A model generated the notes under the pieces. The model was not told the origin of the DNA. It did not search any database and worked only from the letters and a program-made list of their open reading frames with translations. From Cyclobacteriaceae bacterium (GTDB lineage Bacteria; Bacteroidota; Bacteroidia; Cytophagales; Cyclobacteriaceae), in assembly GCA_016787645.1 (NCBI GenBank), contig JAEUUF010000026.1, positions 434,001 through 498,000 of the forward strand: a stretch of DNA of 64,000 bases, in the 5' to 3' direction. Below are positions 3,744-32,194 of the stretch, piece after piece (position 1 is the stretch's first letter; every line of letters begins with the position of its first letter). Made by a program: the position numbers and the translations under genes.

Positions 3744-3744
3744 A

Positions 3745-3759: not shown

Positions 3760-3796
3760 CAAACTAAGCACTCAAAATCTAAACATGCAAGTATTT

Positions 3797-4890: not shown

Positions 4891-4948
4891 GAGGTTACTA
4901 ATATGGAGGGGATGCATGGCAAATACAAAGGCGGGACTAATTTTGACC

Positions 4949-6145: not shown

Positions 6146-6355
6146 TTCCTTGATATAGTGAAGATTCTGCTAACGGAATTGGAGATATTTCGCTCTTCCA
6201 AACCTTCATCGTCCAACGGTTGGAGTCCGCGTTCCCAAAAAGAGGGTAAGTCTTTATTAGCCAGAGATTAAATGAATGTTGCTGAAAAGCCTCTTTAATA
6301 GGTTTTTTCGACGAATTATCTGATATTGAAATTCGAAAAAACTAAACCTTGCCGA
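6146..6355. other. Intergenic leader before the six-gene TIR/STAND/adhesin unit
   Basis: This 210-base gap is one of the two largest in the window. It contains a perfect inverted repeat TCCAAC-G-GTTGGA at 6212-6224 and a terminator-like hairpin at 6285-6308 (listed separately). No tRNA, small ORF with recognisable product, or TAnnTTTG box was seen. A promoter for the downstream unit presumably lies here but I cannot place it. Confidence 0.5.
6285..6308 (+). terminator. Possible intrinsic terminator or attenuator
   Basis: AAAAGCCT (6285-6292) can pair with AGGTTTTT across a seven-base loop, with one G-U pair, and is followed by a run of six T. It lies 140 bases after the queA stop and 48 bases before the next start codon. 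It may end queA transcription, or attenuate the long downstream unit if transcription starts upstream of it. The stem has only three G-C pairs. Confidence 0.4.
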
Positions 6356-9300
6356 ATGAAAGAGCGGTTGACCAACCTCTTGGGGGTTGAGCCGGAAGAA
6401 ACGGGGCCTGTGGCCCTTTTGCTTGCCCTCAGCTTTTTGATGGGATTATTCCTGGCAACCGTAGCGGTTGCGGCGCAAACCCTCTTTCTTACGTCTGAGG
6501 GTATAAGCGAGCAATATGACCTCCCCAAGGCCCTTTTTATTGGCGGAGGTTTCGGCTTCCTGGCAACGGGCCTTTTTAACCTGCTTCAGGGCAGAATGCC
6601 CTTTAGGTACCTCGCAATGTTCTTTCTGGTCTTGATCATTGGAGGTACGGTGGTACTGGAGTATGGCGACAACTACCCGGAACTGATCAGCCCAAATGCT
6701 CTTCACTATGTTGGTTTTGCCCTTGTGCTCCCCTTTACCTTCGTTATGCAACTGGTCTTCTGGGGTGGCTTCAATCGCCTGTTTACGCTTCGCCAGCAAA
6801 AGCGAGTCGTAGGTAACGTATCCATCGGGATGGATATCGCGCAGATCATCGCGTTTTTCACCATTCCCATCATGCTGCAATTCGGGGTGGAAACCCGTTC
6901 ACTGTTCACGATTGGCTTGTTCAGTATTATCGGATTCCTTGCACTGTTCTTGGTGCTCTCCAACAATTACCTGTCTCCGGCAGAAAAGAACCCTCAGCCG
7001 GGCATGATGAATGAAAAGGAGCATAAGAAGCTAAATATCTTCAGCCTTTTGCGCCTTCGTTACATTCTGCTCCTCGCTGGGTTTATCGTCGTGTCTTTTA
7101 CAGCGCTTCGATTTATTGACTATTCATTTTACAACGCAACCATTCAGCGGTTTGACAGCGAAGGACTTCCGATTTTTCTCAGCTTGTTTGAAGCAACCGT
7201 CGTAATCGTCGGATTCTTGTTTGGCTTATTTGCTGCTGACCGGGTACAAGAGGAATATGGGTTGAGGGTTTCACTGATCATTAACCCGTTGTTGCTTATC
7301 ATCTTCACGGGCGCAGCCCTCGGCCTCGGTCTCCTTTTCGGCTATCAAGGAGAATCCGAAAACGTGGTCTTCTTCTTCATTGCCGTGGCCATGTCGAAGT
7401 TGTTTGTCAACTCGCTCCGCGATTCGCTCGATACCCCCGTATTTAAGTTCTATTATGTGCCGATCGAAAAATCCATCAAGCTTGATGCACAAACCAAGCT
7501 GGAGGGTATTGTCACCGCCTTCGCCACGATGGTGGCCGGGGGATTGATTGTTGCCATTAACACTTTTGAAATATTCAACCTGTTGTCAGTCACGCTGTTT
7601 ACCCTTCCTCTTCTGGGAGCTTGGTACCTGATTACCAACCGCATGTACCAGGGGTATCGCGACACGCTCCAGGCCTCACTCCAACGAAATAAGGAATCCG
7701 TCGCCGGCCACGTGGTTCGTGAGTTCACGCTCAATAGCGTACTGGAAAAGGAAGTGAACAGCACCGCCGAAGAGAAGGTCATTTATGGCCTCAAGCTCAT
7801 GGAGAAACTGGAGCCGGCGTTATTTGAAACTTCACTCATGAAGCTTGCTGAAAGCAGCGAACTCAGGAAGGTAAAAGAGTTTGCCCAGGCAAAAATTGAG
7901 GAATTGGGCCTAAGCCAGCAACCCGAAGGAGAAATTGCAGGTCTGGCCAAACAGGCCGCAGGTGCTTCGGAAGACAGCGACCTCCTTTCAATTTCATCGG
8001 AGAAATTGCTGAAGCTCGGCAAATCAGTGAAGCAAGCTGACCGTATGCTGGCGGCTAAGTTGCTTCGCAAGATGATCAGTCAGAAAACGATCTTCATCCT
8101 CCTTGAATTGCTCCGCGATGCCGATCCCAAAGTGCGCAACGAAGCCATCCTGACGGCCCGCAAAGTGAAGCGCCCGGAGACATGGCCCGTGCTCATCGAC
8201 ATGCTGTCATCACCATTATACAGCAACCAGGCGACGGCAGCATTGAAAGAATCGGGCACTCCTGCCCTACAAGTCCTGGACTCCGCTTTTTACAAGTCAG
8301 GACAAACTGACCAGGTTATGCTCAAGATTGTGCAGATCATCGGTCACATCGGCGGCGAAGAGGCTTGGCAACTCCTGTGGAAGAAATCAGACTACCCGGA
8401 TAAGCGAATTGTAAAGCAAATCTTCTATTCACTTCGGTATACCAACTACACAGCTAAAGGCCGGGAGCGTAACCAGGTCATGGACTTGCTCGACACCGAG
8501 ATCAGCAAGACCTTGTGGAATCTGAATGCCCAGGAAGAACTTCCTGAAGAACCGCATTTCTCTTTTCTCAAACAGGCACTCCGCGAAGAACTGCGCGACA
8601 ACTACGACCAGATCTCCTTGCTGATGTCAATCTTGTATGACCCGGTGTCTGTTCAACTGGTGCGTGAAAACGTGGAGACGGGAACCACTGATGGTATCGC
8701 CTACGCCATGGAACTGTTGGACTTGTTTGTCGACCAGGACCTCAAGCCCCGCTTGCTGCCCATCTTCGATGACATGTCGCCGAAGGACAAAATGAATAAA
8801 CTCCAGGTATACTTCCCACGGGAGTCTTACAACCCCGTCCAGGTGGTTAATTATATCCTGAACCGCGACTTTAACCTGAACAACCGGTGGACAAAGATGT
8901 GCGCCGTTTACGCCGCGGCCTATATTCCTGAATTCCGGGTCAGCAGGGGCTTGATTGGACAAATGTTCAACCCTGACCGCCTCCTGCAGGAAACCGCAGC
9001 GTGGGTCATATATAATAAGGACAAGGCCCAGTACCGTATCGTCGCCGATCGTCTTCCCCTGCGCGACAAGAAGTTCCTCGACTCATCCATTGAGAACAAC
9101 CAACTCCTCGACGGTCTTGACGACGGGTTCTTCCTCGGGATTGAAATGGTCATGTTCATTAAGAGCCTGCACGCCTTTTCAGGCATCCCCGGTTCTATCC
9201 TCAGCGACCTGGCTGACAAGATTATCCCAGTCGACCTCCGTCCCCAGGACAAAATCGTATTCAACAATCCCGATGAAAATCGTCCGATCCTCATCTGTGC

Positions 9301-9550: not shown

Positions 9551-9567
9551 AAGCAATCAACCCCACT

Positions 9568-10995
9568 ATGGCTTACGACATCGATGTACTCATCACTTTT
9601 GCCGAGAAGGACAATGAACTCGGCAAGAAGAGCGAAGTTGGCTGGGTAACCCAGTTCAAAAAATTCCTGGAAATGATGCTGTTCCAGGTGATGGGTGAAC
9701 AAACCAAAATTGTGCTCAAGTCTGAATTTGAAGACTTTACCGCGGCAGGAATGAACAATGCCGCTGTGCTGGTCACCATCCTGACAAAGGAGTTTGCCCA
9801 GTCCGGTCGTTGCCTGGATACGGTTGAAGCCTTCTACAAAGCCACAGCCGATTCCAAAGTGCAACGTGTTTTCAAAGTGCTCAAATCGCCGTTGTCAGGT
9901 CCTGAACAACCTCCCCGCCTTCGGGAGTTGCTAAGTTATGACATGTACCAGCTCGATAACGAGACTGGTTTGATGAAAGAGTATACCGACTTCTTCAGCC
10001 AGGATGCTGAAAAGCAATATTGGATGAAAATGGTCGACCTGGTATATGACATTCATGAAGCCCTTATCCTCCTGAGCGGACAGACTAAGGCGGAAGTAAA
10101 AAACATTTACAAGCGCAAGACCATTTACCTCGCTGAAACGGGTCATGATCTTTCCACGCCCAGAAATATTATCCGCCGCGAATTGCAGCGCCATGGATAC
10201 GTGGTGCTTCCCAACCAACTCCTTCCTCCTCGCCAGGATGACCTGGAGCGCGTAGTACGAAGAGACCTCGAAGAATGCAGCCTGTCCGTGCACCTCATCG
10301 GGAGCGCCTATGGAGAAATCCCCGAAGGTTCCGATCGCAGCATTCTCGACATCCAGAATAAGCTCGCCGCTGAACATGCGGTGATCAAGCGTTCGCGCAA
10401 AGAGGAGTTTTCTCGGCTCATCTGGATTGCACCGAACCTCCGCAATGCCAGCGAAAAGCAAAAAGCATTCATTGAGTCACTCCGTCGTGACATCGAAGCA
10501 CAAGAAGGCGCTGAAATCCTTCAAAACCCGTTGGAGGACTTCAAGAACATCATGAGGGAAGAACTGATTTCTTCGCAAACAAAGACGGAAGATCAGCCTT
10601 CATCCGGTAAAACAATTTACCTGGTTCACGACAAAGTCGATCACCAGCAAGTGCTTCCACTTGTCGACGTTATCCAGAAATCCGGATTCAACGTGGTATT
10701 CCCCGCTTTCGAAGGCGACTTGATGGAAGTGAGAAAAAAACACATTGAGAACCTCCGCCAGTTCGATGGAGCCATCATCTTCAAAGGCAAAGTCAACGAC
10801 CAATGGGTGCGCATGAAAGTGCTCGACCTGCTGAAGGCACCGGGCTTTGGCCGTAACAAACCTATCCAGGGCAAAGCGATTGTGAGTGAAGCGCCGCTGG
10901 ATAATTACAAAAACCAGAACGTCACTTTAATCAGTGGCGATAGCAATAAGTCGATCGACTCCATCAAGAACTTCTTACAAGAATTTAAATCCTGA
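9568..10995 (+). CDS. Protein with three TIR-like domains
   Basis: A 475-residue soluble protein with no signal or membrane segment. Residues 1-165 look like a TIR domain: DIDVLITFAEKDN start, WVTQFKKFLE helix, MNNAAVLVTILTKEFAQSGRC strand/loop, and Cys82...Glu87 where NADase-type TIR domains place the catalytic glutamate. Residues ~188-340 form a second domain with the same plan (TIYLAETGHDL, LERVVRRDLEECSLSVHLIG, similar to DUF4062/TIR-like proteins). Residues ~350-475 form a third (TIYLVHDKVDHQQ, RKKHIENLRQFDGAIIFKG). Only the first keeps a possible catalytic Glu; the others may be binding modules. The stop overlaps the STAND gene start (TGATG), so the two are probably made in fixed ratio. 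Enzyme activity is inferred, not shown. Confidence 0.75.
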   Translation: MAYDIDVLITFAEKDNELGKKSEVGWVTQFKKFLEMMLFQVMGEQTKIVLKSEFEDFTAAGMNNAAVLVTILTKEFAQSGRCLDTVEAFYKATADSKVQRVFKVLKSPLSGPEQPPRLRELLSYDMYQLDNETGLMKEYTDFFSQDAEKQYWMKMVDLVYDIHEALILLSGQTKAEVKNIYKRKTIYLAETGHDLSTPRNIIRRELQRHGYVVLPNQLLPPRQDDLERVVRRDLEECSLSVHLIGSAYGEIPEGSDRSILDIQNKLAAEHAVIKRSRKEEFSRLIWIAPNLRNASEKQKAFIESLRRDIEAQEGAEILQNPLEDFKNIMREELISSQTKTEDQPSSGKTIYLVHDKVDHQQVLPLVDVIQKSGFNVVFPAFEGDLMEVRKKHIENLRQFDGAIIFKGKVNDQWVRMKVLDLLKAPGFGRNKPIQGKAIVSEAPLDNYKNQNVTLISGDSNKSIDSIKNFLQEFKS

Positions 10996-13900
10996 TGTCT
11001 ATGGCAAAGCAAGTAGACGAGAAACCCCAGTCTCCGCAGCAACAAGTAGGCGTCGCCAACCCCTTCCCCGGGTTGCGTCCCTTCAAGATTGAGGAAAGCC
11101 ACCTGTTCTTCGGCCGTGAAGGTCAAAGCGACGAGGTGCTCCTTAAAATGTCAAAAAGCCGCTTCGTCGGCGTTATCGGTCCCTCTGGATCCGGTAAATC
11201 ATCCTTCATCTATTGCGGGGTGCTGCCGATCCTCTATGGAGGCTTCCTGACCGACACCAGCCCAAACTGGGAGGTGATCGTAACCCGACCTGGCGCGAAC
11301 CCGGTTGATAACCTGGCCGAATCCCTCCTGGGTTCCAGCAAGGAATACAACCAGGCTGATGCGGAGGACAAGAAGATCAAGCGGACCATTGTTTCGACCC
11401 TCTTGCGAAGCAGCTCACTCGGATTGGTGGAAGCTATCCAGCAATCACGCAAGTCGCAGGACATCAACTACCTCATCCTGGTCGACCAGTTTGAGGAATT
11501 GTTCCGCTTCCGCGACGGCTCTGATCCGAATTCCGTCAACGAGACATTGGGGTTTGTCAATATGTTGATGGAAGCCGTGAACTATGAAGATGCCCCCATC
11601 TATGTAGCCATCACGATGCGTTCTGATTTTATCGGAGACTGTGCACAGTTCCCGGAATTGACACGCAAAATCAACGACAGTCACTACCTCATTCCTCAAA
11701 TGACCCGCGACCAGAAGCGTCGCGCGATCGAAGGACCTGTGGCCGTAGGTGGTGCGAAGATCACCCCGCGCTTGACGCAACAACTGCTCAACGACCTGGG
11801 TGATAACCCTGACCAACTCCCTATTCTTCAGCACGCGTTGATGCGTACATGGAGCTATTGGGCAAGATTCCGCGACTACGAAGATGAACCGCTGGACCTC
11901 AAGCATTACGAGGCCATCGGTACGATGAAGGAAGCGTTGTCGATGCACGCCAACGAAGCCTACGACGAATTGGACGAAGAACAGCAGCGCATCGCCGAGA
12001 TTCTCTTCAAGGCGATCACTGAAAAGCGTGGTGAAAACTTCGGTATCCGCCGTCCGACCCGCTTGGGAGAGATTGCCTCTATCGCCGACGTGGCCGAGAG
12101 CGATGTGATGGCCGTGATCGAGAAGTTCCGGGAACCGGGACGCTCACTCATCACCCCTGCCCATGGCGTTCCGCTCACCGGAAAGTCCATGGTCGACATC
12201 TCGCACGAAAGCTTGATGCGGATTTGGGTTCGTCTGAAGAACTGGGTGGATGACGAGGCGGATGCCGTGCAGATGTACTTGCGTCTCGCTGAAGCCGCCA
12301 CACAGTATCAAATAGGCAAGGCTGGTCTCTGGAGGCCACCGGATTTGCAGTTGGCCCTCAACTGGCAGGCCAAGCACCGTCCTACCCTCGTTTGGGGTCA
12401 GCGGTACAACCCCGCATTCGAGCGGACCATGATCTTCCTCGAGTACTCAAAGAAAGAGTGGGACACCGAACAGCGGATCAAGGAACTTGAACAGAAGCGG
12501 CGCCTGCAACGGGCCCGCACTACAGCCACCGTGTTTGGTGTGCTGGCGATCATTGCCCTCATTGCCTTGGTATATGCCTTCGTGCAGCAGGTGAAGGCCA
12601 CCAAGAATGCTGAATTGGCCGAAGCACAGAGAATCATAGCTGTTGCTGCGCAAAAGGAAGCGGAAACGAGCGCTAAAGAAGCTAAACGACAGGCCGACAT
12701 TGCTGAAGAAGCCCGGCGTGCAGCAGAAAAATCTGCTCAAGAAGCCCGCGAAGCTGAAGCACTCGCCCGGCAACGCGAACAAGAAGCCAATGCTGCCCGA
12801 ATTCGTGCAGAAAAAGCCGAGGCCAACGCCAAAGCCCAGGAAGCCATAGCCGTCGAACAGCGGAAAGCGGCTGAACTTCAGCGTGACCGTGCTGACCAGG
12901 CAACCCGAGAGGCCAACCGACAGCGATACCTCGCCCAGGGCAAACAGATGGCTGTGAAATCCAAAGAATTGGATAACGACCCTGTTCAGCAATCGCTGGT
13001 TGCCCAACAAGCGTACAAGTTTAATACCGCCAATGGCGGCAACCCGTTTGATGATGATATCTTCAATGGGCTGTACCATGCGCTGGATCACAAGCAATGG
13101 AACGATCCCCTCACCCGAAGCCTGGAAGGCCACGAGAAGGGTGCAGCACGGGCATTGGTTACGCGGGTGAAGACGAAGGAAATATACTCAGGCGGAAGTG
13201 ATGGACGGATTCTTCGTTGGACCTCCGACGGCGGAACCTGGAAACATGACTCCATTGTGGGTGGACGGACAGACTACCAGGTATATTCGATTGACGTAAG
13301 TCCTGACGATAATTATCTGGTTGCAGGTGGTGCCACCACCGGTGACATCACTAACAACTACATCGAGTTGTATGATTTGCGCAACCTCTCGCAGGCCCCC
13401 AAGAAAGTCTTTGGGTTTACCGGCGTCGAAACGGTGGAATTTTCGCACACCGAGATGGGTGCCTATGTACGTGACCAATCTGGGTTCAGTATCAAGTTCA
13501 CGGATTTCAATACAGTGCGTGAGGTGATCAAACCGAAAGAGAAGATTTCAATGATCACCATCAGCCCCGATGGAAAACGGATGGCAGGTACTGGAAACGC
13601 GGGTTCCCTTTTTGTCTGGGATCTTACCAACAACTTTGCTGAAAAAGTAGCCTTCAAGAACAATGCGCCATTAACTTCGGTGACCTTTGCCACAGACAAC
13701 AGCCGTCGTATTATTGTCGGAGATAACACGGGCCAGGTCAAGATTATCACGGAGGACACCAATTTCGCTCCCCGGATTCTCTCCGGTCACACGGCACACA
13801 TCGAACAAATCGTGTTCAACAATGCCGGTAAGTTTCTGGCGACCACGAGCCGAGATGGCACAGTGCGCTTGTGGAACTGGGACAAACTTTCGGACAACCC

Positions 13901-14174: not shown

Positions 14175-14190
14175 TTAAGCGATTGCGACC

Positions 14191-15261: not shown

Positions 15262-15262
15262 T

Positions 15263-16525: not shown

Positions 16526-16572
16526 GAAAGGATAGGCATTTTAAGTCACGCATTTACCAAGAGAAGATTGTT

Positions 16573-25500: not shown

Positions 25501-28500
25501 ATCACGGCAGACCACGACCTGGTTCAGCTTACCATTACGGGTGTAACCCAAAGCGCTGGTTCATTGCTTTACCAGGGCCCTACTCCTCCTAACGCAGCCT
25601 ATAAAGGCGGCGTACTAAACGGAGACAAGACGCTGGCCACCGCCAACAAGATTGACGTGGTAGCGACTAAACTGGTATTCACTCAAAACCCGCCCGCTTT
25701 CGCAGGTATCCTTGAACCAGTTCCTTTTAGTGGGACTCCTGCCACGACAGTTGTGGCCCGTGACGCGAACAACAACCTCGACGTCGACTTCGATTTTGCC
25801 ACGAATTCAACGGTAGGAAGTTTGACCTCTGTGGCAAACCTCACTTCAACCACTTTCCCATTTGCGGCGGGTGTACTGGATTTGGGAACCTATCGCTATT
25901 CGGGTGTGGGCAATGGCACACTCACCGTTAACGTTTCAACGGGGCTTCCTCCGGTGGTAGTTGGCTTCCCGCCGGTTATTGCCGCTCCCACTGCCGCTGT
26001 CTCTACCAATGTTGATGTTATCCACGTGGCCACGAGCATTGCAACCGGCGGTATCATCGGTTCCACCAACCTGGCCGGAGGTGCTGTCAATAAGGTTATT
26101 TTCGGTATAACCTTCAGTGCAGCTTACCAGGCCGGAGGTGAACCCGACCTAAGCAGCTTCCGCATTAACTTTGGAAACCTCGGTAGTGTTCACTTAGACC
26201 AAATATTTGCTAACCCAAGAATCTTTGAGAACACCAGTGCCACCTTTGGCGGGCCGAACATCAGCTCGTTCGGTGGTACCGTGACGTTTGACAATACAAC
26301 CTTCCGAGACCTCATTGTCAATTTCCCCACGCCCCGACCGCTCACAACCGCCAAGTCCTATTTCCTGATGGTGGACATCGTCTCCACCGCCAGTGGATCT
26401 ACTCCTTCAGTTACGCCAAATGTGATCGATGACCCATACCCGGCGGCCACAGGAACAAATATTGTGACCACGAAAGGAAGCGCGACTTCGAACGTTTCGG
26501 GCCAGACTTACAATTTCTCGGCTATCTTCCCTCCTACGCTGACGTCATCGTACCCAGCTCCCGGGCAACTTAATGTGTCCCGTAGCCAGCCCACTATTTC
26601 CCTGACATTCAGTGTTCCCGTTTGGTCGCTGAACTCAGCTGGCATAGGCCTCTACGATGGTGCAACAGATGCCTTCATCCAGAACCTTCCTTTGGCGAGC
26701 GGCGGTCCTGGTAGTGGCGACTATGCCGGAGGTATCGTTGCGAATCTTGGCAATCCGCTGGTCTTCCAGTTGCCTGGAGCCGGTGTGCTCCAGGACAACC
26801 ATGTCTACTATATCAAGATCGATGCAGGTGTCTTCAATGGAGCAGCGGCGGTTAACAACAAGGGCATCATGGACCAGGCCGGTAACTTGTTTGCGGGTAT
26901 ATCCTATTCCGGGACCCTCTACTTCAAGACGGCAAATCCAAATGCACCTAACTTACTTTCCACGCCGGTTTCAGCCAGCAACCCAACGGTACTAAATCCT
27001 TCCACTACCGGTGGGGTAATTTCAGCGATCTTTGACCAGCCCGGCAAGGCCTTTTTCCTTGTCCTTCCGAGCGGAACGGCGACTCCTACACCGGCGCAAA
27101 TCCAGTCAGGAGCTCACCCTTCACAAGTGGCCAGTGGTTCTTTTAACATTGACCAAATCAAGCCAGCTTCACAATTTGGCGTGATTACGCCAAGCAGTGG
27201 AACGCTTACCGCCGGCAACACCTACGATCTGTGGATGTCTGCCGTGGGCTACAGCGAGAACAACGGCGTGCTGACGCAGATACCTGCTGCCGCACCGGCC
27301 CATTATGGTAACATCGGCAACGTGGCCAAAACAGGAACCATCAGTACCACCACTACAAGCAATGTGGTTACAGGGTCTGGTACTTTGTTTACCACCGAAT
27401 TGGTCCCCGGAAGGTCCCTTTTTGACGGAGCAGTCCTGATCGGAACAATTGCGACGATTACGAGCCCAACATCCTTGACACTGGCGGCTAATGCACCGGT
27501 GGATCTTACCAATCAGCCTTACACTGCTTCAGGATTTGAAGTAGGTGCAACGGGACCTACGCTTACGTTTATCGCTGCAGCGACTTCCGCTTCAGTAACA
27601 CTGAACCAGCCATCGTTGGATATCTGTACGGACGCTTACAGCACGCTTAACCTGCCGATTGTAATTACAGAGTCGTCTTCAAAGGCAGATTTCAGCAGCG
27701 GTTCTACACAGAACTTCAACCTGGTATTGCCTGCTGGCTTCTCTTTTGATGCTTCGTTGACCAATGGTAGGCCTACGTATGGTAAACTGACCTTAACCGG
27801 TGCGGACTTTACTATCCCTCCGCTGCAGTCAGGCACCATCACTACTTCCTTGCTGTCGCCCAATGTGGTCGGAGTTGGAACCTTGTTCACAAGCCAGTTT
27901 AACATTGGTGATGTGGTATACAACTCAACGGGTACCACCCTCATCGGAACGGTCGCATCGATCACCAGCAATACCAGCATGACATTGACGTCGAATGCCG
28001 CAGTTGCCGTGGCCGCTGCAACGTACCGTGGTCCTTACCATCCCGGAAATCCTCAATTGGGATTTGTAGGAAGCTCCATCCTGACGGTGAGCTACATTAA
28101 TAATGGCAATACCACGATTGACAAGATCATTATTTCAGATCTTCGTGTTACATCACCGTCCGGTGCCAGTGGACCGATCACCCGCTTTGGCGGAAATGCC
28201 CTGCTCACAGCGATCCCTGACTTGTCCTCTGTCGCCACGATCAGTTCTTCGGACGCACAGGGCATCACCTTCTCCAACAGCTATTCGTTGCTGAAATTTG
28301 GAAACGGTAGTGTTACTACGATTCCTGACGAGTTCCAGGATCCAGTCTTGCTGACACAACCGAACGCTGTTCAATTGTTCCCCGTGGCTCCTTTCGGAGA
28401 TTATGGACCTACGTCGTTCAGCGGGCCTGGTGTTAACATCAACATCCTGAACCTCACCGCGGTGACACTGAATACACCGTTCAATATTTCTGTGGATCAC

Positions 28501-31500
28501 AAGGACAACAACGGATGTCCGTCCACCAGCTTTGAACAGTACACGGTTTATGATCACACCCGAGCCATCGCCGACTTGTCGCCGGAATACTGCAGTACAA
28601 ATACGAATTTCAAGATCACCAACCCGACGGCCTTGGCTACCGTGGGTGTGGCCACCCACCTGGTGACATTTGATCGCCTCCAGTCCTACTACCTGGAGAA
28701 ACTCGTATCCCGTGTTCCGCTGAATGCACAACCTTTCGGGACGCCCCCTGCTCCGGGACTGTTGCCACAAATCATTTATGGACCCGGTTGGGACAATGTG
28801 ATTCAGAATTTCATGATCACGAAGCTTTTCAACCAGGTGTATCCCGGTCCTCCTTCGACACCGTACCCTGTATTCGGACCTACCGGTGGTTTCAACCCGG
28901 CCAACAACCCTATCCCTGGTACAGCGCCGTTTACCGGACCGAATGCGCCAAAGACGTATTTTAACTACACCATCGATGAGGCCACCGTGCTGAACGCCAA
29001 GTCGATTGACGGAACAATTCCACGCAATCCTTACGATTACTTCATCCAACTCAGCCCCCAGGGCAATGCATACTACAAAGGCGGCTCACTCGGGATTGTG
29101 GAATTTGAAGGAACGTATCAGAGCATTGCGAATGCCAACATTCAGATTCCTTTGATCCAGAATGTTGAGTTCTTCGTTCCTGCTGTTCCTATCATAGAAA
29201 CCAGCAGGCCCTCCTTCCTGGATGTAGCCGATGGCAACAACCCTCCCGGTCCTCCCGGCGATAGTAACCAGGGCACACCCGTATTCTGCGAACTTGGAGG
29301 GTCCATTACACTCAATGGATATCCTGCAGCCTCACCCGGCAGTTCAGTGGGTACGTTCCGGCTGTACCAGTACTTGAATCCGACAACCAATGGTCCTACC
29401 ATCTACGATCCATCGCTGCCCGCCAATACAGTGGTGTCTGCGATTGATAACGGTGGATTCACACAATTGACCCTGAGTGCTCCCATTATCATCAATGTGA
29501 ATGACTTCATTGCGTTGACTGGCGCGACACCGGCCGGACTGAATGCATCCCACAAGGTGCTTTCCAAGATTTCCGGATCTCAGTTCACCGTGAACATTCC
29601 CTTCAATGCTGGGAATAACTTCACGGCTGCAACGGTGACGATCGGTGGTTTCAAGGATAATGGTAACGGAGTTGCCAGTATTGACCCGACCATGCTCAAG
29701 AATGGTAACCTGGACATTGTGGTCGAGTACGAGTACCATGATCTTGCTTCGCCCTGTACGAGCAAGACAAAACAGATCATCCGGATCAGCCCGAACCCGG
29801 TGGCCTCATTCACCTTCCAAAGCCTGAGTGGCTCTCCCTACATCGTCTCCCCCGCTGCAAAGTGTGAAGATGAACCGATCACCTTTACCTCTGGAGCTAC
29901 CAGTGCCGATCCTATCAATAGCACAATCAGGACTTACACCTGGGATTTTGGCGATCCTAGTTCGTTGACCAACCAGGTGTCAAACAGCATCCCTGGCCAG
30001 GCGCACACGTATGATAACCCCAGCACGGTACCGTATTTGGTCAAACATAACGCTGTATCTTACTGGGGATGTCCTTCGGTGATACCCACCGCATTGGGCA
30101 CGGTGCAGGACTTCCAGCAAAACCTTGATGTAGGACAAAAACCGGTGGTGAAGTTCAGCCTGTCCGGTCTGGCCAAGAACGATGTATTTAAGTTCACAGC
30201 CCATGACGCGACCGGAAATACGACGGTATCCGCCAATGATGCCATCAAGCAACTGAAGTGGGACTTCGGCCAGGGCGCTCCCGGGACGAACATTAACATC
30301 AGGGATGCCGCCGATGGGCTGACTACGAATGCACAGTTCAACGCAGACATTGTCAACTTCACCTATACTCAGGTTGGACCCCAGTTGGTTGACCTTGAAG
30401 TTCAATCTAACCTCGGCTGCCAAAACCGGCTTAGCCTGGACGGCACCTATCGCAACATTGTCGTACTGGATCGCAAGGTGCTTCTTACCAGCAGCGATGT
30501 ATATGAGGAAAACTTCGATGCCAACGATGGCAACTGGCAGAAGTGGGGCGCAGCGCAGACCATAAATGAGATGGTGGCTGCTATTCCGACGGCGACCTGG
30601 GGACGGGGATTACCGGCTAATCCATTTGACCCTAGTTACAATACAATCTATAGCCAAATCGCCGGTTCGGGCCTCATGAAAACCAACCCTACTGGAAACT
30701 ACAATTCCAACGAAAGGTCGGCGTTGTACAGTCCCAGCTTCGATTTAAGCCCTTTACTGCGACCTATGATCTCCTTCAATAGCATTGTGCAAACGGCGGT
30801 CAGTGATGGTGTCGTTCTCCAATTCTCTACCGACACGCTTAATATTGCTGATCCGGATAAAGTCTGGCAGACACTCGGACAGATTGGTGATGGCGAAGAT
30901 TGGTTTAACATTAATGCCATTGCCGGGAAACCCGGTGACCAGACCCAGGATGACTTCGGCTGGAGCGGAGCAGATGGCACTGCCTGGATATTCCCCAAGC
31001 ACACCCTGGATGTGGTCAATGCGAGCAATCATGTAGTATTCCGCTATGCGATGGGTAGTGTAAGTGGTGGAAGTTCGGGCTTCTGGCTTGATAACGTCCG
31101 CATCGGTGATCGCACCCGGACTATCTTATTGGAAAGCTTTGCCAACACCGCCAATACCTCTAAAACGGGTACCTGGGAATCTGAAAAAGCGCAGGCCGAT
31201 TCGGTAGCTCTCTTCCAGGATGGTGCTGTGGGTACAGAGGTGATTAAACTCAACTACCACCTCAATTTCCCTGGAAAAGACCCTATGAATGAGGACAACC
31301 CAGCGGACCCGAGTTCGCGAGCATTGTTCTACAACATCACAACCACGCCACGTTCAGTGTTGGATGGTGAAAAGGACCCGACGGATCGGTTGTTCAGTGA
31401 ATGGGGACAGTCTCTCTACGATGTGAGATCGTTGCAGCTTGCCAAAGCGAATATCACTATCAATCCCACCGTGGTTGCTGATTCACTGATTATCAATGTG

Positions 31501-32136
31501 GATGTCAAGTCGACGGTCCTCACGGGCATTGGAACCAATACCCTGGTTCATGTCGTAGTCCTCGAGAAGGATATAACGCTTCCCTCGGCTAAACAGAGTA
31601 TGGTGAAGAGCGGGGAAACCTCGTTCGAATATGTGGTCAAGAAAATGTTGCCCTCTGCGGCGGGTACTCCGTTCGGAGCAGTTTTGCCTTACAACTCCAC
31701 GCGATCCTTCGGACCATTTGTTTGGAAACCTGAGTTATCCAGGCTTTATGACAATCCCAATGATCTAGTGGTTGCGGTCTTCCTCCAGGAGTCTGTACCA
31801 CCCTATGAGGTTCACCAGGTAGAATTGTTCGAGCCGATTAACGATCCATCCATCGTTACCGGGCTTGAGCCTCTGGCTTCGGACAAAGTGCTGGTGTACC
31901 CGATTCCTGCGAACCGAGAAATGACGGTTCAGTTACCCGGACAAGTTGCCAAGCGTGCTGATCTTCAGTTGATCGATCAAACAGGACGACCAGCATTGAA
32001 GTCTTCCATCCCTGAAGGAGCCGACCGCGCCACGCTCAATGTGAGCGACCTTTCAGGTGGTGTTTACATCCTGACCATTGATATGGGACAAGGAGTCCTC
32101 ACCCGGAAGAAAGTGATGATTGTACACCAGGACTAA
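16573..32136 (+). CDS. Giant T9SS-secreted multi-repeat surface protein (5187 residues)
   Basis: A single uninterrupted frame of 15.6 kb. The signal peptide is MKRFLQNLFLTSCFVLTAFA. Then: a ~100-residue Ig-like domain; seven tandem ~108-residue Ig-like repeats (residues 127-880); a mixed region with an eighth copy near 1468; four ~280-360-residue units (about 1908-3140); an SbsA/Big_5-like segment near 3320; a PKD-like domain near 4405-4500 (TYTWDFGDPSS); a jelly-roll/MAM-like domain (~4645-4845); an Omp28-like domain (TILLESFANT onward); and a T9SS type A sorting domain (5106-5187). Seven copies of a ~68-residue module are scattered between 1062 and 3821. The likely location is the cell surface, after T9SS export across the outer membrane. 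It ends a six-gene unit. Adhesion is inferred from architecture. Confidence 0.88.
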   Translation: MKRFLQNLFLTSCFVLTAFAALAQPTFSSATTTTTTNIRVTFTAAANLSGIPGGFAGFTVTGATISAASIVGGAGNSKQVDLTVSALAPNFTCTSCVAVAAGTVTDGTPNAVIAAAGNNVTDGILPVITSVSIPNSPMKVGSVVTATIIVNSDADTYTLGSSNIGGFSLGSLNKSNNTTYTATFTVTNGGTDVAAGSNIPISVILQDTGGNNSAAFTTAIAQGGDPIDANNPVISAVSIPNVAMKVGDVVTATITVVNDGGDTYTLPGGSTIGGFALGSLNRTNSTTYTATFTIANGGTDVAAGSNIPVNITIQDGATNSSAAFTTAIAQGSDPIDANNPVITAVTIPNAAMKVGSLVTATITVTNDGGVTYTLPGGSTIGGFALGSLNRTNSTTYTATFTVTNGGTDVAAGSDIPVSVVLNDPAGNSSSAFTTAISQAGDPIDANNPVITAVSIPDVAMKVGDVVTATITVNSDPDTYTLPGGSTINGFALGSLAKTNNTTYTATFTITNGGTDRAAGATIPISVLLQDGATNNSNTFTTAISQANDPIDANNPSFTSVLPNPNTGFRKIGDAVQVNLTATGSEATLVAGATMTVNGVNVAGTFQNLGGGSYRVTYTVGSGDTDRASGTLPISLQFNDAAGNTGTVAAFTAANTLVIDANAPVITAVTIPNVTMKVGDVVTATITVANDGGVTYTLPGGSTIGGFTLGGLARVNSTTYTATFTIANGGTDVPAGNDIPVSIVMNDPAGNASASFTTAISQGGDRIDANRPVITAVTIPNVSMKVGDVVTATITVTNDGGDVYTLPGGSTIGGFALGGLIRTNATTYTATFTITNGGTDVAAGSNIPITVTLQDTAGNNNSPAFTTAIVQAGDPIDANNPGPFTVGTVVTTGGTVRAGYWNATNSGVNITVPIANDASLNNPGAVQLQGKVSTDLTWTNVGASSVIGAINTNKVMALTAVQFEGIPNFGETKIVQIRAIITDAAGNSTTGTQSATTLTVDQVAPTISGSPRIYYDAVNTDGTTGGSHDREIVIFEINEPISLADNSSVNDFRNAGGSLNAPGTISVANNDKTVTGTGTTFTTTFVRGQGVYNTSGTKLGEVASITNDLSLELFDNGSANYSGNYRTGVGAGITDGNNDGRITSDANGSKYFDSYAPAFASPTVFTRAVRLISRDGGSNWSSSASPVSQLRYVSGGNLTDLAGNEFTLAPTNLVSGSSTPPALSPNVMTLFPRSSNPEKISFNLSASLGQSGIIDGTGTITTSLTTVTGVGTAFDTELAVGQHIFDANSLHYVGTISAIGSATSITLTANAAYPITGAGFSATDYAGLITASTGSATVTGTSSAFTTDLAVGQQLYDITGTLYIGEIQSITNATTLVLTANAANNVTAAPYLTSITGFTSASPVAQFSAIYTSKGNLNKITLLSQANGTFTTSTTISYTGTSGNAVGSNGVELADIGAHAVVMETVAPVISNVSIPNVSMKVGDVVVATITTADDDGDDVTLTSGAINGFALGGLVNVNGTTKTATFTVVEGGTDVLAASNVTFSTNLVLTDSSVPTASAPYNTAIVQANDRIDANSPKVLSINRQTTVNNGAPSFGTSSSTAVFRVTFSEDIAPGSISAADFAIPVKGIGTGTITASTASASVIGVGTSFTTQLIIGAQIWDRTGTILIGTVSSITDNVTLTLSANAAANLAGTPYTSPNIASLTGATITNVAAVTGTSVYDVTVGTYTGLGVLGLDYVDNNDANAVLDIAGNGTITSLVNPDGDFAGQTYQIVLPQPSTHVTGLTVSATALDNYSLKLDWTGTSTGATNYLIIARGLTDLDAAGAYPAVADKTPVPDDTDFTDGQGAINISSSVNTYTFTTLLSGKSYDFTVIPYALSPNNTSDNIDFFTAGAPFVNTTFTNTALATTLTAGTTAAPATISSLSTAFGAKNFTFKISDDDGVPAVDNARTRFTQLVISAGPGNTVPDWSQVIQEAELRTVTETTTLLVSGASIGVSTITFATSTADNAEGEVDDNEVKEYELRIRLKNPMTGTAPQNVDGQVFVFQATAAGFTLLNAPSRSSQFGATESENSGSGTTVDVLATRFSFTAGGSVQPPATAFVLTNLTVSPIVRAVDINGNTDKGYNGAVTITNTGALPMTSASLPIASGVISFPAAFQYTDDGVFAAGNGTLTVSDGTIINGTSTSVTVSYSNTSTITAGATGEPVTISSLTTLSPGTQVFDFTINEDFGAAGDGSPTRISDIVITQGTGNDIATWTQAIPVNGAVLSDGVNTIVGTVGATSITFSGINVATLGFIADGGTKTYRLNVWLNSAMGGTLPTTVDNLNLVFEVLQSNVTTTNLSSTIAPAENENSGSTNNAVAVIATKMDFTTNPAATLLPNKAISLQLPIPIVEARDANNNRDLDYNSTTIVVTNAGSIPMSNAPASNSMSAGLLTFPGTFQYNNVGNGTLTIATSTLNAAAGIPTNAVSSAVSVQAGSATTLSAGGSGSPTIASTVNTVGAAVPVFNFTVNDDPGGTPPAQDDGNPTLITQLKFTQIAPNTIADWTQAIAGAVLTDGTFSTPASGTVTINPTDITVSGISPVILQAGTITSSTGSTTVTGVGTAFAAGLVGKVLYDGAGTTRIGTVLSVGSATSLTLSANAAVTLAGSTFSTADLGLVTDNGTKTYTLRIYLKSALGGTLPITIDGLAFGFEMLTSGVTTSLNGTSVLPAQAQNSGANDVVTVTATKLTFVQLDGSDNFAFPANPWPANADINSPFSPRLGMEARDVNNNRDLGFTGSITAFTVNNSLGTSNNPSGAFTAGTLKFPSLVPATSFFYTSGDNQDGALTVTAGGVTSTSPPINVRSSQDAYVYFDDTGYTPLINSATQQAASLPATADATVATLAKLILSDGGAANFELTGLNSAISDGDGAFTRISQISFAVTNSQDLRTLALYNNAGTKISSDVAAGPTVNFTGLNIQAPDNGSIDFTVRTTFASTITADHDLVQLTITGVTQSAGSLLYQGPTPPNAAYKGGVLNGDKTLATANKIDVVATKLVFTQNPPAFAGILEPVPFSGTPATTVVARDANNNLDVDFDFATNSTVGSLTSVANLTSTTFPFAAGVLDLGTYRYSGVGNGTLTVNVSTGLPPVVVGFPPVIAAPTAAVSTNVDVIHVATSIATGGIIGSTNLAGGAVNKVIFGITFSAAYQAGGEPDLSSFRINFGNLGSVHLDQIFANPRIFENTSATFGGPNISSFGGTVTFDNTTFRDLIVNFPTPRPLTTAKSYFLMVDIVSTASGSTPSVTPNVIDDPYPAATGTNIVTTKGSATSNVSGQTYNFSAIFPPTLTSSYPAPGQLNVSRSQPTISLTFSVPVWSLNSAGIGLYDGATDAFIQNLPLASGGPGSGDYAGGIVANLGNPLVFQLPGAGVLQDNHVYYIKIDAGVFNGAAAVNNKGIMDQAGNLFAGISYSGTLYFKTANPNAPNLLSTPVSASNPTVLNPSTTGGVISAIFDQPGKAFFLVLPSGTATPTPAQIQSGAHPSQVASGSFNIDQIKPASQFGVITPSSGTLTAGNTYDLWMSAVGYSENNGVLTQIPAAAPAHYGNIGNVAKTGTISTTTTSNVVTGSGTLFTTELVPGRSLFDGAVLIGTIATITSPTSLTLAANAPVDLTNQPYTASGFEVGATGPTLTFIAAATSASVTLNQPSLDICTDAYSTLNLPIVITESSSKADFSSGSTQNFNLVLPAGFSFDASLTNGRPTYGKLTLTGADFTIPPLQSGTITTSLLSPNVVGVGTLFTSQFNIGDVVYNSTGTTLIGTVASITSNTSMTLTSNAAVAVAAATYRGPYHPGNPQLGFVGSSILTVSYINNGNTTIDKIIISDLRVTSPSGASGPITRFGGNALLTAIPDLSSVATISSSDAQGITFSNSYSLLKFGNGSVTTIPDEFQDPVLLTQPNAVQLFPVAPFGDYGPTSFSGPGVNINILNLTAVTLNTPFNISVDHKDNNGCPSTSFEQYTVYDHTRAIADLSPEYCSTNTNFKITNPTALATVGVATHLVTFDRLQSYYLEKLVSRVPLNAQPFGTPPAPGLLPQIIYGPGWDNVIQNFMITKLFNQVYPGPPSTPYPVFGPTGGFNPANNPIPGTAPFTGPNAPKTYFNYTIDEATVLNAKSIDGTIPRNPYDYFIQLSPQGNAYYKGGSLGIVEFEGTYQSIANANIQIPLIQNVEFFVPAVPIIETSRPSFLDVADGNNPPGPPGDSNQGTPVFCELGGSITLNGYPAASPGSSVGTFRLYQYLNPTTNGPTIYDPSLPANTVVSAIDNGGFTQLTLSAPIIINVNDFIALTGATPAGLNASHKVLSKISGSQFTVNIPFNAGNNFTAATVTIGGFKDNGNGVASIDPTMLKNGNLDIVVEYEYHDLASPCTSKTKQIIRISPNPVASFTFQSLSGSPYIVSPAAKCEDEPITFTSGATSADPINSTIRTYTWDFGDPSSLTNQVSNSIPGQAHTYDNPSTVPYLVKHNAVSYWGCPSVIPTALGTVQDFQQNLDVGQKPVVKFSLSGLAKNDVFKFTAHDATGNTTVSANDAIKQLKWDFGQGAPGTNINIRDAADGLTTNAQFNADIVNFTYTQVGPQLVDLEVQSNLGCQNRLSLDGTYRNIVVLDRKVLLTSSDVYEENFDANDGNWQKWGAAQTINEMVAAIPTATWGRGLPANPFDPSYNTIYSQIAGSGLMKTNPTGNYNSNERSALYSPSFDLSPLLRPMISFNSIVQTAVSDGVVLQFSTDTLNIADPDKVWQTLGQIGDGEDWFNINAIAGKPGDQTQDDFGWSGADGTAWIFPKHTLDVVNASNHVVFRYAMGSVSGGSSGFWLDNVRIGDRTRTILLESFANTANTSKTGTWESEKAQADSVALFQDGAVGTEVIKLNYHLNFPGKDPMNEDNPADPSSRALFYNITTTPRSVLDGEKDPTDRLFSEWGQSLYDVRSLQLAKANITINPTVVADSLIINVDVKSTVLTGIGTNTLVHVVVLEKDITLPSAKQSMVKSGETSFEYVVKKMLPSAAGTPFGAVLPYNSTRSFGPFVWKPELSRLYDNPNDLVVAVFLQESVPPYEVHQVELFEPINDPSIVTGLEPLASDKVLVYPIPANREMTVQLPGQVAKRADLQLIDQTGRPALKSSIPEGADRATLNVSDLSGGVYILTIDMGQGVLTRKKVMIVHQD
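16951..19212 (+). repeat. Seven tandem ~108-codon Ig-like repeats in the giant gene
   Basis: Units begin at 16951, 17269, 17593, 17917, 18238, 18562 and 18886, with periods of 318-327 bases. Each starts VI(S/T)AV(S/T)IP, carries MKVGDVVTATITV and TTYTATFT, and ends near DPIDANNP. The fifth unit (18238) is divergent in sequence but keeps the length. The Asp/Asn-rich joint at each boundary resembles the calcium-binding linkers between cadherin-like domains; calcium binding is inferred. Adjacent units are similar enough at DNA level to recombine. Confidence 0.9.
19756..19950 (+). repeat. 68-residue module, copy A (most divergent)
   Basis: It encodes GTISVANNDKTVTGTGTTF, then GQGVYNTSGTKLGEVASITN. 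It follows the fragment NEPISLADNSSVNDF, which looks like the first half of a domain, and is followed by a different strand-rich stretch. Confidence 0.7.
20341..20544 (+). repeat. 68-residue module, copy B
   Basis: It encodes GTITTSLTTVTGVGTAFDTE, then VGTISAIGSATSITLTANAA. It is directly joined to copy C with a 207-base period, the only tandem pair of this module in the gene. Confidence 0.85.
20548..20751 (+). repeat. 68-residue module, copy C
   Basis: It encodes GLITASTGSATVTGTSSAF, then IGEIQSITNATTLVLTANAA. It is in tandem with copy B. After it the host sequence resumes with ITGFTSASPVAQFSAIYTSK. Confidence 0.85.
20974..21303 (+). repeat. Isolated eighth copy of the ~108-codon Ig-like repeat
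   Basis: It begins VISNVSIPNVSMKVGDVV and ends with DRIDANSP, which clearly matches the 16951-19212 array, but lies 1.8 kb downstream of it. The interval between holds other domains and three copies of the 68-residue module. It suggests that the array was once longer or that a copy was moved. Confidence 0.85.
21466..21672 (+). repeat. 68-residue module, copy D, splitting a cadherin/Big-like domain
   Basis: It encodes GTITASTASASVIGVGTSF, then IGTVSSITDNVTLTLSANAA. It is flanked on the left by FSEDIAPGSISAADFAI and on the right by SLTGATITNVAAVTGTSVY. These two fragments read as the halves of one common adhesin repeat in which the DF strand normally leads straight into the SLTG strand. Confidence 0.85.
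22291..25990 (+). repeat. Four tandem ~280-360-residue composite units in the giant gene
   Basis: Units begin at about 22291, 23155, 24007 and 25110. Each has a TLTAG.../(V)F(D/N)FT(I/V)(N)(D/E)D opening, a T(R/L)I(S/T)(D/Q) segment, a (F/V)SG(I/A) strand followed by a (K)TY(R/T)L or EYEL strand, and in the later part a K(L/M)xF(T/V)... then ARDxNNNxD(L/V) motif. The third unit is longer (about 1100 bases against about 850 for the second), mostly because it contains module copy E. The limits are approximate. Confidence 0.7.
24331..24534 (+). repeat. 68-residue module, copy E, splitting one of four paralogous units
   Basis: It encodes GTITSSTGSTTVTGVGTAF, then IGTVLSVGSATSLTLSANAA. The host unit reads VSGISPVI before it and LGLVTDNGTKTYTL after it. 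The preceding paralogous unit has the same strand uninterrupted (FSGINVATLGFIADGGTKTY, at about 23425-23484), which pins the insertion point to within a few codons. Confidence 0.88.
27334..27537 (+). repeat. 68-residue module, copy F
   Basis: It encodes GTISTTTTSNVVTGSGTLF, then IGTIATITSPTSLTLAANAP. It lies between a fragment ending HYGNIGNVAKT and one starting EVGATGPTLTFIAAATSASV. Confidence 0.85.
27832..28035 (+). repeat. 68-residue module, copy G
   Basis: It encodes GTITTSLLSPNVVGVGTLF, then IGTVASITSNTSMTLTSNAA. It lies after GKLTLTGADFTIPPL and before PGNPQLGFVGSSILTVSY, which again read as two parts of one strand-rich domain. It is 498 bases from copy F. Confidence 0.85.
31888..32133 (+). 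other. T9SS type A C-terminal sorting domain of the giant protein
   Basis: The last 82 residues read VLVYPIPANREMTVQL..., a central LQLIDQTGR strand, then LNVSDLSGGVYILTID and end with the basic KKVMIVHQD. This matches the type A sorting signal of T9SS substrates (YPxPA start, L-x-D-x-x-G, LxxGxY, K-x-x-x-x). It directs outer-membrane export and surface attachment, after which it is normally cleaved. Confidence 0.9.
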
Positions 32137-32152
32137 TTGTCTGTCAACCATG

Positions 32153-32194
32153 AAAAAGCCGCTTTTCTACCTGAAAAGCGGCTTTTTCTTTTCC
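32153..32194 (+). terminator. Strong intrinsic terminator after the giant gene
   Basis: A 15-base perfect stem (AAAAAGCCGCTTTTC at 32153-32167 with its reverse complement at 32173-32187) surrounds a five-base loop and is followed by TCTTTT. It begins 16 bases after the stop of the 5187-residue gene and closes the six-gene unit. The symmetric A/T ends would also work on the other strand. Confidence 0.92.

Follow-up and report, generated by a model that had tools for sequence, protein, structure and literature searches.

The window analysed here is a 64,000-nucleotide stretch of DNA, and its positions 6356-32136 carry six genes on one strand, separated by intergenic gaps of 17, -1, 16, 1, and 47 bases according to the list of open reading frames (ORFs). 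An intrinsic terminator, composed of a 16-pair stem and then a T run, lies 3' of the sixth gene (32152..32188, +). The same-strand run, its gaps, and the closing terminator had been described in an earlier note on this DNA, and all were borne out. The ORF list starts gene 1 with a TTG at 6326, whereas the earlier note used the ATG at 6356. A terminator scan of positions 5000-18000 resulted in 19 candidates, which is the chance level (15.2 expected, sd 3.7). The neighbouring genes are housekeeping genes (QueA, TerC, GcpE, and cytochrome oxidase), with no defence island among them.

Gene 1 (6356..9550, +) encodes a polytopic NTT/MFS-like membrane protein of 1064 amino acids with HEAT repeats (about 8006-8242, +; HEAT_2, E 6e-9) and a non-canonical C-terminal CNBD (about 9248-9481, +), matched weakly and below the Pfam cut-off by cNMP_binding (E 1e-3). 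The name "NTT-like", given to it earlier, suits this architecture and is weak by model, as the window protein matches MFS_1 (E 1e-5, below the Pfam cut-off) and not TLC, the ATP/ADP translocase model. Sixteen homologues were scanned, resulting in HEAT_2 matches in fifteen, cNMP_binding in nine, MFS_1 in six, and TLC in one; a PDB sequence search with gene 1 gave no lead. The column that we take to hold the Arg of the CNBD phosphate-binding cassette, picked by its motif, contains Arg in three of the 58 units compared, Lys in 17, including the window protein, which thus departs from the cassette motif, and other residues in 38. In a wider set of 31 rows, the same column has Arg once and Lys eight times. 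The acidic residue of the CNBD is kept in 50 of the 58 units, and either Arg or Lys occupies the Arg column in 20.

Gene 2 (9568..10995, +) encodes a protein of 475 amino acids with three TIR-like domains. Domain 1 matches TIR_2 (about 9640-9954, +; E 5e-9) and domain 2 matches DUF4062 (about 10123-10347, +; E 7e-6), both above the Pfam cut-off, and domain 3 follows at about 10606-10992 (+). The AlphaFold model has three alpha/beta domains (pLDDT 80), and Foldseek placed a CoA synthetase on top (E 2e-4), then the TIR structures RPP1 (2e-4) and SNC1 (1.4e-3). For the catalytic columns, we used 112 sequences, a set that includes L092 and L093 and counts some genomes twice. The aligned catalytic-Glu column of domain 1 has Glu in nine of the 112 and Thr in the window; E87, two residues past this column, is conserved in 91, which would allow for a shifted active site in this domain. 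In the DUF4062 domain, the column that we take as catalytic, placed by a motif, is Gln in 103 of the 112, the window included. PADLOC assigned none of its families to 25 TIR homologues.

Gene 3 (10995..14174, +) encodes a receptor of 1059 amino acids composed of an nSTAND1 NTPase, a TM, a coiled coil, and WD40 repeats. The nSTAND1 region (11061..12311, +; PF20703, E 9e-98) is the constant part; residues 1-490 have a mean pairwise identity of 84% over the 58 units, and the Walker A and B positions G62, S64-S70, and D164-E168 are invariant in 16 gene 3 sequences. A single TM helix (residues 512-530; 12528..12584, +), Arg/Lys-rich on its N-terminal side, is followed by an alanine-rich coiled-coil stalk (about residues 535-690; 12597..13064, +) and by the WD40 half (13062..14171, +; PF00400, E 2e-19), which harbors a C-terminal Cys pair (C1023, C1051) in all 58 units. 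The TM rule applied to the 58 gene 3 members gave one TM in 43 and two or three segments in 15. In all 43 members with one TM by this rule, the positive charge is greater before the TM than after it, and the WD40 half is accordingly predicted to be periplasmic; a cytoplasmic WD40, which had been named as counting against a trans-envelope role, was not indicated. PADLOC provided only marginal mad3 and mad8 matches for the STAND protein (E 5e-4 and 2e-3) and no match for genes 1, 2, 4, and 5.

The last three genes appear to build the outer part of the system. Gene 4 (14191..15261, +) encodes an outer-membrane barrel protein of 356 amino acids (OMP_b-brl_2, E 2e-16), with an N-terminal periplasmic TPR-like domain (about 14254-14550, +) preceding the barrel (about 14563-15258, +). 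Gene 5 (15263..16525, +) encodes a lipoprotein of 420 amino acids (Cys16) without a Pfam match; its lipobox Cys is conserved in 58 of 58 units, and its predicted fold is a beta-propeller (pLDDT 87.6), the closest PDB structure being CylK (E 5e-15). Gene 6 (16573..32136, +) encodes a giant of 5187 amino acids, predicted from its domains to reach the cell surface through the type IX secretion system (T9SS). It comprises a PKD (about 29872-30024, +), a weak Omp28 match below the cut-off (about 31330-31683, +), and the type IX secretion C-terminal domain Por_Secre_tail (about 31894-32121, +; E 5e-9), which was also found in four of four other giant C-termini scanned. The 26 closed giant ORFs of other complete named units have 541-2478 amino acids, a range biased low because longer ORFs run past the ends of the 23-kb loci, and the lower limit of 541 comes from the last piece of an ORF that is split.

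The gene order is kept in relatives. Eighty named loci were compared. All 77 that could be tested have the TIR gene immediately 5' of the STAND gene, and the NTT-like gene is upstream of TIR/STAND in all 69 with 6 kb of sequence there. Downstream of STAND, the barrel was found in 67 of 72 named loci and the lipoprotein in 70 of 72, and slot 6 holds a giant or otherwise large ORF in 53 of 56. In 242 genomes, 47 of 53 TIR matches sit directly upstream of a STAND match, and the order is also kept in other families of Cytophagales (G039, G041, G046, G050, and G054). The earlier note would have been undermined by unlinked genes in relatives; both sets show linkage, and a chance gene order was rejected on the same data.

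Three observations go beyond that note: a second unit, outgroup units that have TonB-receptor-type barrels and partner-switching genes, and an outer half exchanged in blocks. The second copy (unit 2) is without a TIR gene in all 25 loci fetched for it, so this gene is not obligatory; gene 1 is kept in all 25. The outgroup units harbor TonB-receptor-type barrels and the partner-switching genes SpoIIE, STAS, and HATPase_c_2. TonB_dep_Rec and Plug were found in six of six TonB-receptor-type barrels, and a TPR-like domain of about 100 amino acids is common to these six and the OmpA-type barrels (E 5e-24 to 1e-13). The outgroup units L201, L217, and L218 contain STAND, TPR-barrel, and NTT-HEAT, but the stretch covered at these loci gave no match to the lipoprotein or the giant.

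For the comparison of gene histories, the 80 named loci and the window provided 64 units with complete genes 1-5, of which 58 remained after removal at a STAND identity of at least 93%. Single-linkage clustering of the barrels at 40% identity set the barrel types; 44 of the 58 units fall into two main types (27 and 17), and the other 14 are outside the switch counts. The NTT, the TIR, and the STAND NTPase share one history, with a quartet agreement of 0.86-0.95. The barrel and the lipoprotein, whose trees are weakened by fast evolution, share another (0.85), against 0.51-0.56 with the inner genes. The minimum number of barrel-type switches was six for NTT, six for TIR, seven for the NTPase, and six for the coiled coil, versus two for WD40, three for TPR, one for the lipoprotein, and one for the barrel, the last by construction because the types are defined on barrel identity. 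A single inner clade for barrel type 1 was rejected (p-AU 2e-38).

The partial Mantel correlation given the inner genes was 0.76 for barrel-lipoprotein, 0.45 for WD40-TPR, and 0.40 for WD40-barrel. The outer parts, as the earlier note had them coupled, thus correlate with each other and with the WD40 half beyond the inner genes. By quartets, the WD40 half lies in between, agreeing at 0.62 with the barrel versus 0.65-0.68 with the inner genes in 44 rows, and at 0.69 versus 0.74-0.80 in 16 matched genomes; it is placed with the outer block in part, and only on the counts of switches and on individual clear-cut cases. The same 16 genomes provided an internal control, in which agreement with the unit-1 NTT tree was 0.91 for the unit-2 barrel and 0.59 for the unit-1 barrel. 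Only the barrel control is clean, because the unit-2 lipoprotein tree agrees poorly with all other trees (0.53-0.70). In this comparison, gene 1 of G014 is truncated in the 20-kb locus, and its sequence came instead from the named locus on that contig.

Discordance is also seen in single cases. Between L108 and L125, the inner identities are 96% (NTT), 97% (TIR), and 99% (NTPase), versus 48% (WD40), 60% (TPR), 26% (barrel), and 32% (lipoprotein) in the outer part. In L111, the NTT, the TIR, and the downstream TerC-like protein have 87-96% identity to L113/L155/L174, whereas the barrel and lipoprotein are closer to L137/L129/L159 (62-71% vs 36-44%). Its giant fits the block less well, being 47% like L129/L159 but 38% like both L113 and L137. 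The surface protein probably belongs to the exchangeable block. The breakpoints examined in these two cases fall in the gene 3 stalk, outside the membrane. L156/L157 speak against a uniform block, as the WD40 half has 80% identity, yet the barrel and lipoprotein have only 33% and 26%. A variable sensing part exchanged on a constant core, the mark of a polymorphic locus, was thus found for the barrel and lipoprotein, and in part for WD40. Taken together, the inner signalling half looks faithfully inherited, whereas the outer sensing half seems to have moved from lineage to lineage many times, for the most part in one piece.

Artefacts were considered for these cases. L108 and L111 are metagenome assemblies; chimaeric metagenome contigs as the sole cause were rejected, as L121 and L141, which have no metagenome label, are also discordant, although less sharply (NTPase 92%, barrel 27%). 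A chimaeric L111 contig as the sole cause was rejected since two boundaries lie in one 611-kb contig and the match to the sister group resumes downstream. Fast evolution alone was rejected as well, given NTPase/barrel identities of 99/26% in L108/L125 versus 94/76% in the window and L146.

We consider it somewhat more probable than an even chance (about 0.57) that the operon encodes a trans-envelope recognition receptor with a constant core and an exchangeable sensing cassette. The order of the genes, the evidence on topology, the discordance of the histories, the breakpoints, and the internal control come from computation, and complex formation, the signalling direction, the roles of the TIR and NTT proteins, and the nature of the ligand are inferred. 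The giant T9SS protein, the lipoprotein propeller, and the outer-membrane barrel would form the surface sensor, and the periplasmic TPR-like domain of the barrel would touch the WD40 half of gene 3 in the periplasm. Through the coiled-coil stalk and the single TM helix, such contact may control whether the nSTAND1 NTPase in the cytoplasm oligomerises or undergoes a nucleotide-dependent switch; the NTPase would then act on the TIR-fold protein and, as output, on the NTT-HEAT-CNBD membrane protein. The TIR-fold protein is more likely a scaffold than an enzyme. Specificity would reside in the exchangeable block recombining into the vertically inherited inner core; the barrel and lipoprotein moved together in the cases examined, and the WD40 half and TPR in most. 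Block exchange onto a constant core is as expected of a recognition locus, whether for contact with kin or neighbours or for a phage or predator.

A narrower version of this receptor is tentative, and we would bet against it at modest odds: a bacterial allorecognition-like receptor for cell-surface contact. Its set of specificity determinants, to which the sensing half of an NLR-like STAND ATPase would belong, would be swapped several genes at a time, with recombination concentrated in the periplasmic stalk and the STAND-TIR-NTT machinery of the cytoplasm left constant. NLR/STAND receptors are mostly regarded as sensors of the cytoplasm. If true, an NLR-type receptor would here face outward across two membranes, and the operon suggests a lineage in which the STAND sensor was moved to the periplasm, tied to the outer membrane and the surface, and given specificity exchanged in blocks. 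It also offers testable partners (WD40 and the TPR domain), chimaeras made by evolution, and a TIR-less copy as an internal control.

An envelope-stage defence against phages or competitors, in which surface binding would trigger the STAND NTPase and the TIR and NTT proteins would stop the cell (abortive infection), is rather unlikely. The nSTAND1, TIR, and DUF4062 domains do occur in known defence, DUF4062 being described in PMC13174449 as a NADase family used in defence, and cytoplasmic STAND and TIR systems offer a parallel; in addition, L091, a related unit, has a TIR protein whose catalytic column is Glu, paired with a TrkA_N protein (weak RyR match). The housekeeping neighbours, the congruently inherited core, the mostly non-Glu TIR catalytic columns, and the PADLOC results for the TIR homologues and STAND speak against it. 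A mobile defence island was rejected on the neighbours, the congruent core, and the collections: the phage collection contained three records with partial matches (23-26% identity), and the plasmid collection 219 records, all below 60% identity, nine of them covering at least 80% of the query.

Less probable again is adhesin biogenesis or quality control, in which the operon would display the giant T9SS adhesin, the STAND arm would sense its assembly or tension and adjust energy or gene expression, and the outer diversity would come from phage or predator pressure on a surface antigen rather than from partner recognition. It fits the frequent large ORF in slot 6, the partner-switching genes of the outgroup, which are typical of stress regulation, and a locus lying between QueA-like and TerC-like genes, as in L071, L098, L099, and L101. 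However, not every unit includes the adhesin, because the three outgroup units above have no lipoprotein or giant match in the stretch covered, and a WD40 half at the inner membrane is not expected to switch with antigens unless fitted to them. Against the receptor reading, a surface locus targeted by phages could also yield similar patterns without signalling if it is a hotspot of recombination. The relay proposed earlier, a TIR-made nucleotide product read by the CNBD of gene 1, would suit the adjacency of the two genes in one operon, the kept E87, and the CNBD acidic and Arg/Lys residues, but is improbable given the scarcity of Glu in TIR domain 1, the Gln of domain 2, the 55 of 58 CNBDs without Arg at the Arg column, and the retention of gene 1 in the TIR-less unit 2. 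Of the earlier trans-envelope proposal, the linkage, the predicted periplasmic WD40, and the correlated outer parts are supported, and TIR enzymology feeding the CNBD is not.

The component families are known; what we claim as new is their assembly and exchange pattern. A full-text search of the open-licence PMC literature resulted in no published description of the six-gene set. TonB-dependent transducers of the Fec/Fpv type have an outer-membrane barrel with an N-terminal periplasmic domain and an anti-sigma factor as the receiver. The present operon shares such a barrel and an inner-membrane signalling protein, and six outgroup or paralogous units have TonB-receptor-type barrels; here, however, a STAND NTPase bearing WD40 repeats takes the place of the anti-sigma factor, and the window lineage adds the lipoprotein and the giant T9SS protein. 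The conserved P-loop nSTAND1 and C-terminal WD40 resemble STAND NTPases that sense through WD40 repeats (APAF-1-like, bacterial nSTAND1, and fungal hnwd), and in Podospora hnwd, a family involved in recognition, the WD repeats are reported to diversify (PMC2873952). In contrast to these proteins, the inner membrane here parts the NTPase from a sensor predicted to be periplasmic, and the inheritance of this sensor tends to follow that of the genes for the outer membrane and the surface.

Gene 1 appears to share the architecture of the NTT-HEAT-cNBD fusions of Major et al. 2017 (PMC5381601), the available part of which reports 43 Bacteroidetes NTT sequences, calls the interplay of the fused domains unknown, and does not mention a STAND/TIR/barrel operon; the window protein differs from these in its non-canonical CNBD and a transporter half scoring MFS, not TLC. 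Domain 2 of gene 2 resembles the DUF4062 TIR-like NADases (Swarozyc and TEP1), and the PMC13174449 preprint describes DUF4062 adjoining NACHT and WD40 domains in human proteins; here, the presumed catalytic column is mostly Gln, and the protein is separate from STAND and in an envelope operon. TraA-type polymorphic kin-recognition receptors also combine variable surface specificity with constant machinery, a likeness of pattern, whereas the exchange here spans several genes and, in cases, half an inner-membrane receptor. The DGR-diversified STAND antigen sensors (PMC10907252) likewise have a diversified sensor, with one target predicted to be periplasmic; here, diversity comes via block exchange. 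The six-gene set is kept among environmental Cytophagales bacteria, and the named strains carrying the operon are Ohtaekwangia koreensis, Chryseotalea sanaruensis, and Chryseolinea lacunae.

The ORF check of the window returned the six plus-strand ORFs of the unit (6356-32136) with the coordinates and gaps (17, -1, 16, 1 and 47 bases) claimed in the earlier note, and an intrinsic terminator with a 16-pair stem lies 3' of them (32152-32188, plus strand). The product of gene 1 is polytopic, with HEAT repeats and a CNBD that scores weakly, and the TLC model matched just 1 of the 16 homologues scanned. In gene 2, TIR_2 and DUF4062 are followed by another alpha/beta domain, and gene 3 comprises nSTAND1, one TM, a coiled coil (the stalk), and WD40. 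The remaining genes encode a TPR-like domain plus barrel (gene 4), a lipoprotein with a propeller fold (gene 5), and a giant protein of type IX secretion (gene 6). The gene 1 architecture resembles that of the NTT-HEAT-cNBD proteins of Major et al. 2017 (PMC5381601).

In the 4.0-Mb genome containing the window, the unit has housekeeping genes as neighbors (QueA and TerC, with GcpE and cytochrome oxidase farther right) rather than a defence island. On the minus strand, cytochrome oxidase subunits accompany NrfD, 4Fe-4S, and multihaem cytochrome genes (46585-61476), a set reminiscent of a cluster for alternative complex III and an oxidase, and a 1261-aa histidine kinase (40917-44702) has a long N-terminal part without a Pfam match at 1e-5.

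The linkage check proposed earlier showed that the gene order is retained in relatives. Among 80 named loci, which favor near relatives because they were picked by STAND similarity as the best 80 of at least 505 confirmed, the TIR gene adjoins STAND upstream in 77/77 with an ORF available, and the NTT-like gene lies at most three ORFs upstream in 69/69 with 6 kb of sequence. Downstream, the barrel gene is present in 67 and the lipoprotein gene in 70 of the 72 loci with 3 kb of sequence, and slot 6 holds a giant or an ORF of at least 500 aa in 53 of the 56 with 6.5 kb. In one locus of a single-contig genome (L097, G024; 9904-18264), the barrel and giant genes are broken into separate ORFs, through either genuine decay or frameshift errors in sequencing. 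An even draw of 242 genomes of the order (completeness at least 90%) contained STAND in 67 (E 1e-200) and the TIR protein in 48 (E 1e-30), all 48 among the 67; 47 of 53 TIR matches were directly upstream of a STAND match and six were not. At phylum level, an even draw gave STAND at E 1e-100 in 14 of 392 genomes. A second, TIR-less unit 2 consists of genes 1-3-4-5, usually followed by a large ORF (25/25 loci fetched for it). Two loci of the same genus (L092, L093) show another arrangement, in which the STAND proteins measure about 1350 aa and have DUF4062/TIR-like genes close by.

Across 58 units, near-duplicates removed, mean pairwise identity is 84% for the NTPase, 62% for TIR, and 56% for NTT among the inner parts, and 56% for TPR, 46% for WD40, 34% for the coiled coil, 30% for the barrel, and 27% for the lipoprotein. 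Barrel and lipoprotein distances correlate at 0.81 (partial Mantel 0.76), and either correlates with genes 1-2 at 0.41-0.48. The two main barrel types comprise 27 and 17 units; lipoprotein group 0 accompanies 27/27 type-0 and 0/17 type-1 barrels. Barrel types switch at least six times along the inner tree (12-16 in the first ten label shuffles), and type 1 as one inner clade was rejected (p-AU 2e-38), the groups having been defined from the barrel. By that tree, the nearest named relatives of the window are L107, L146, L178, and L104, all of them uncultured assemblies bearing the title Cyclobacteriaceae or Bacteroidetes. The minimum number of switches was 6 for NTT, TIR, and the coiled coil and 7 for the NTPase, versus 2 for WD40, 3 for TPR, and 1 for the lipoprotein; therefore, the two halves of gene 3 differ in history, and by switch count its outer half mostly tracks the outer membrane. 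Quartets count against this outer grouping, as WD40 lies between both blocks, agreeing at 0.65-0.68 with the inner genes and at 0.62-0.70 with the outer parts.

Within the same 16 genomes, quartet agreement with the unit-1 NTT was 0.91 for the unit-2 barrel versus 0.59 for the unit-1 barrel, which agreed with its lipoprotein at 0.83; the unit-1 WD40 was nearer the inner genes (0.74-0.80) than the barrel (0.69). This unit-2 control rests on the barrel because the unit-2 lipoprotein tree is noisy there (0.53-0.70). Over the 23 of 25 unit-2 loci complete enough for distances, NTT and barrel agreed at 0.95.

Individual exchanges could be followed. L108 and L125 share 96-99% identity in NTT, TIR, and NTPase and 26-60% in the outer parts; protein identity holds across the TM and breaks just past it. 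In L111, NTT, TIR, and the downstream TerC-like protein are 87-96% like those of L113, L155, and L174 (other flanking proteins 67-92%). Its WD40 is 88% identical to L137 versus 51-54% to those three, and its barrel and lipoprotein are 62-71% identical to L137/L129/L159 versus 36-44%. The switch point is the gene 3 stalk, and toward the 3' end of the giant gene the DNA again resembles that of the sister group. Stalk alanines favor one heptad phase (16/39 in the window), and such repeats could serve as recombination joints. The L156/L157 exchange lacks WD40, so WD40 is not part of every exchange. Most likely, the unit would be a receptor across both membranes with an exchangeable sensing block. 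The exchange pattern favors recognition of something variable; defence, kin or neighbor recognition, and adhesin control are possible roles.

A periplasmic WD40, as the earlier note proposed, is predicted by charge. Of 58 gene 3 members, 15 gave two or three segments under a simple hydropathy rule and were left uncounted; the 43 single-TM members all carry more positive charge before the TM than after it (mean +3.7 and -0.2). C1023 and C1051 are kept in 58/58 sequences, consistent with a periplasmic disulphide.

The proposed relay from a TIR product to the CNBD fared poorly. The aligned catalytic column of TIR domain 1 holds Glu in 9/112 proteins, the nine including no unit-1 protein from the window's genus, although E87, two residues past it, is kept in 91/112; that of domain 2 holds Gln in 103/112. 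The CNBD Arg column has Arg in 3/58 and Lys in 17/58, and the acidic column Asp or Glu in 50/58. Because of these counts, we lean toward the TIR protein being a scaffold and the NTT-HEAT protein being the more constant partner for output. TIR enzymatic activity or nucleotide binding by the CNBD is possible, and the third domain of gene 2 may bind something (R389, H392, W413, K417, D420, and K423 each kept in at least 100/112). Elsewhere, DUF4062 is an NADase family (PMC13174449).

In other lineages, the genes next to STAND encode an NTT-HEAT protein and signalling proteins: SpoIIE phosphatase (L200), STAS (L200, L217), HATPase_c_2 (L086, L200, L218), and Reg_prop with Y_Y_Y (L086, L200, L201, L218) or alone (L217). 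In L081 and L077, genes 1 and 2 are separated by a HAMP-SpoIIE gene. Slot 4 encodes a TonB-receptor-type barrel in L086, L091, L201, L202, L217, and L218 (TonB_dep_Rec plus Plug, 6/6); a slot-4 gene was looked for in L200 and none was recognised. These six barrels and the window's OmpA-type barrel have in common an N-terminal TPR-like domain of about 100 residues (E 5e-24 to 1e-13, profile positions 2-112 of 349), which is therefore the part of the outer-membrane partner that stays constant and would be the natural contact for WD40.

L091 (G034, same genus; 2247-15037) represents another unit type, made up of a TrkA_N protein (weak RyR match), a TIR protein whose aligned catalytic column holds Glu, STAND, a TonB-receptor-type barrel that shares the TPR domain, and an NTT-HEAT protein. 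In L200 (G247; 2031-3374), an outgroup from another class, STAS and STAND are immediately preceded by a T6SS_VasE gene. Isoamylase-like genes occur in L086 (13930-16047) and L218 (13614-15962), close to STAND units with HATPase_c_2 genes of their own.
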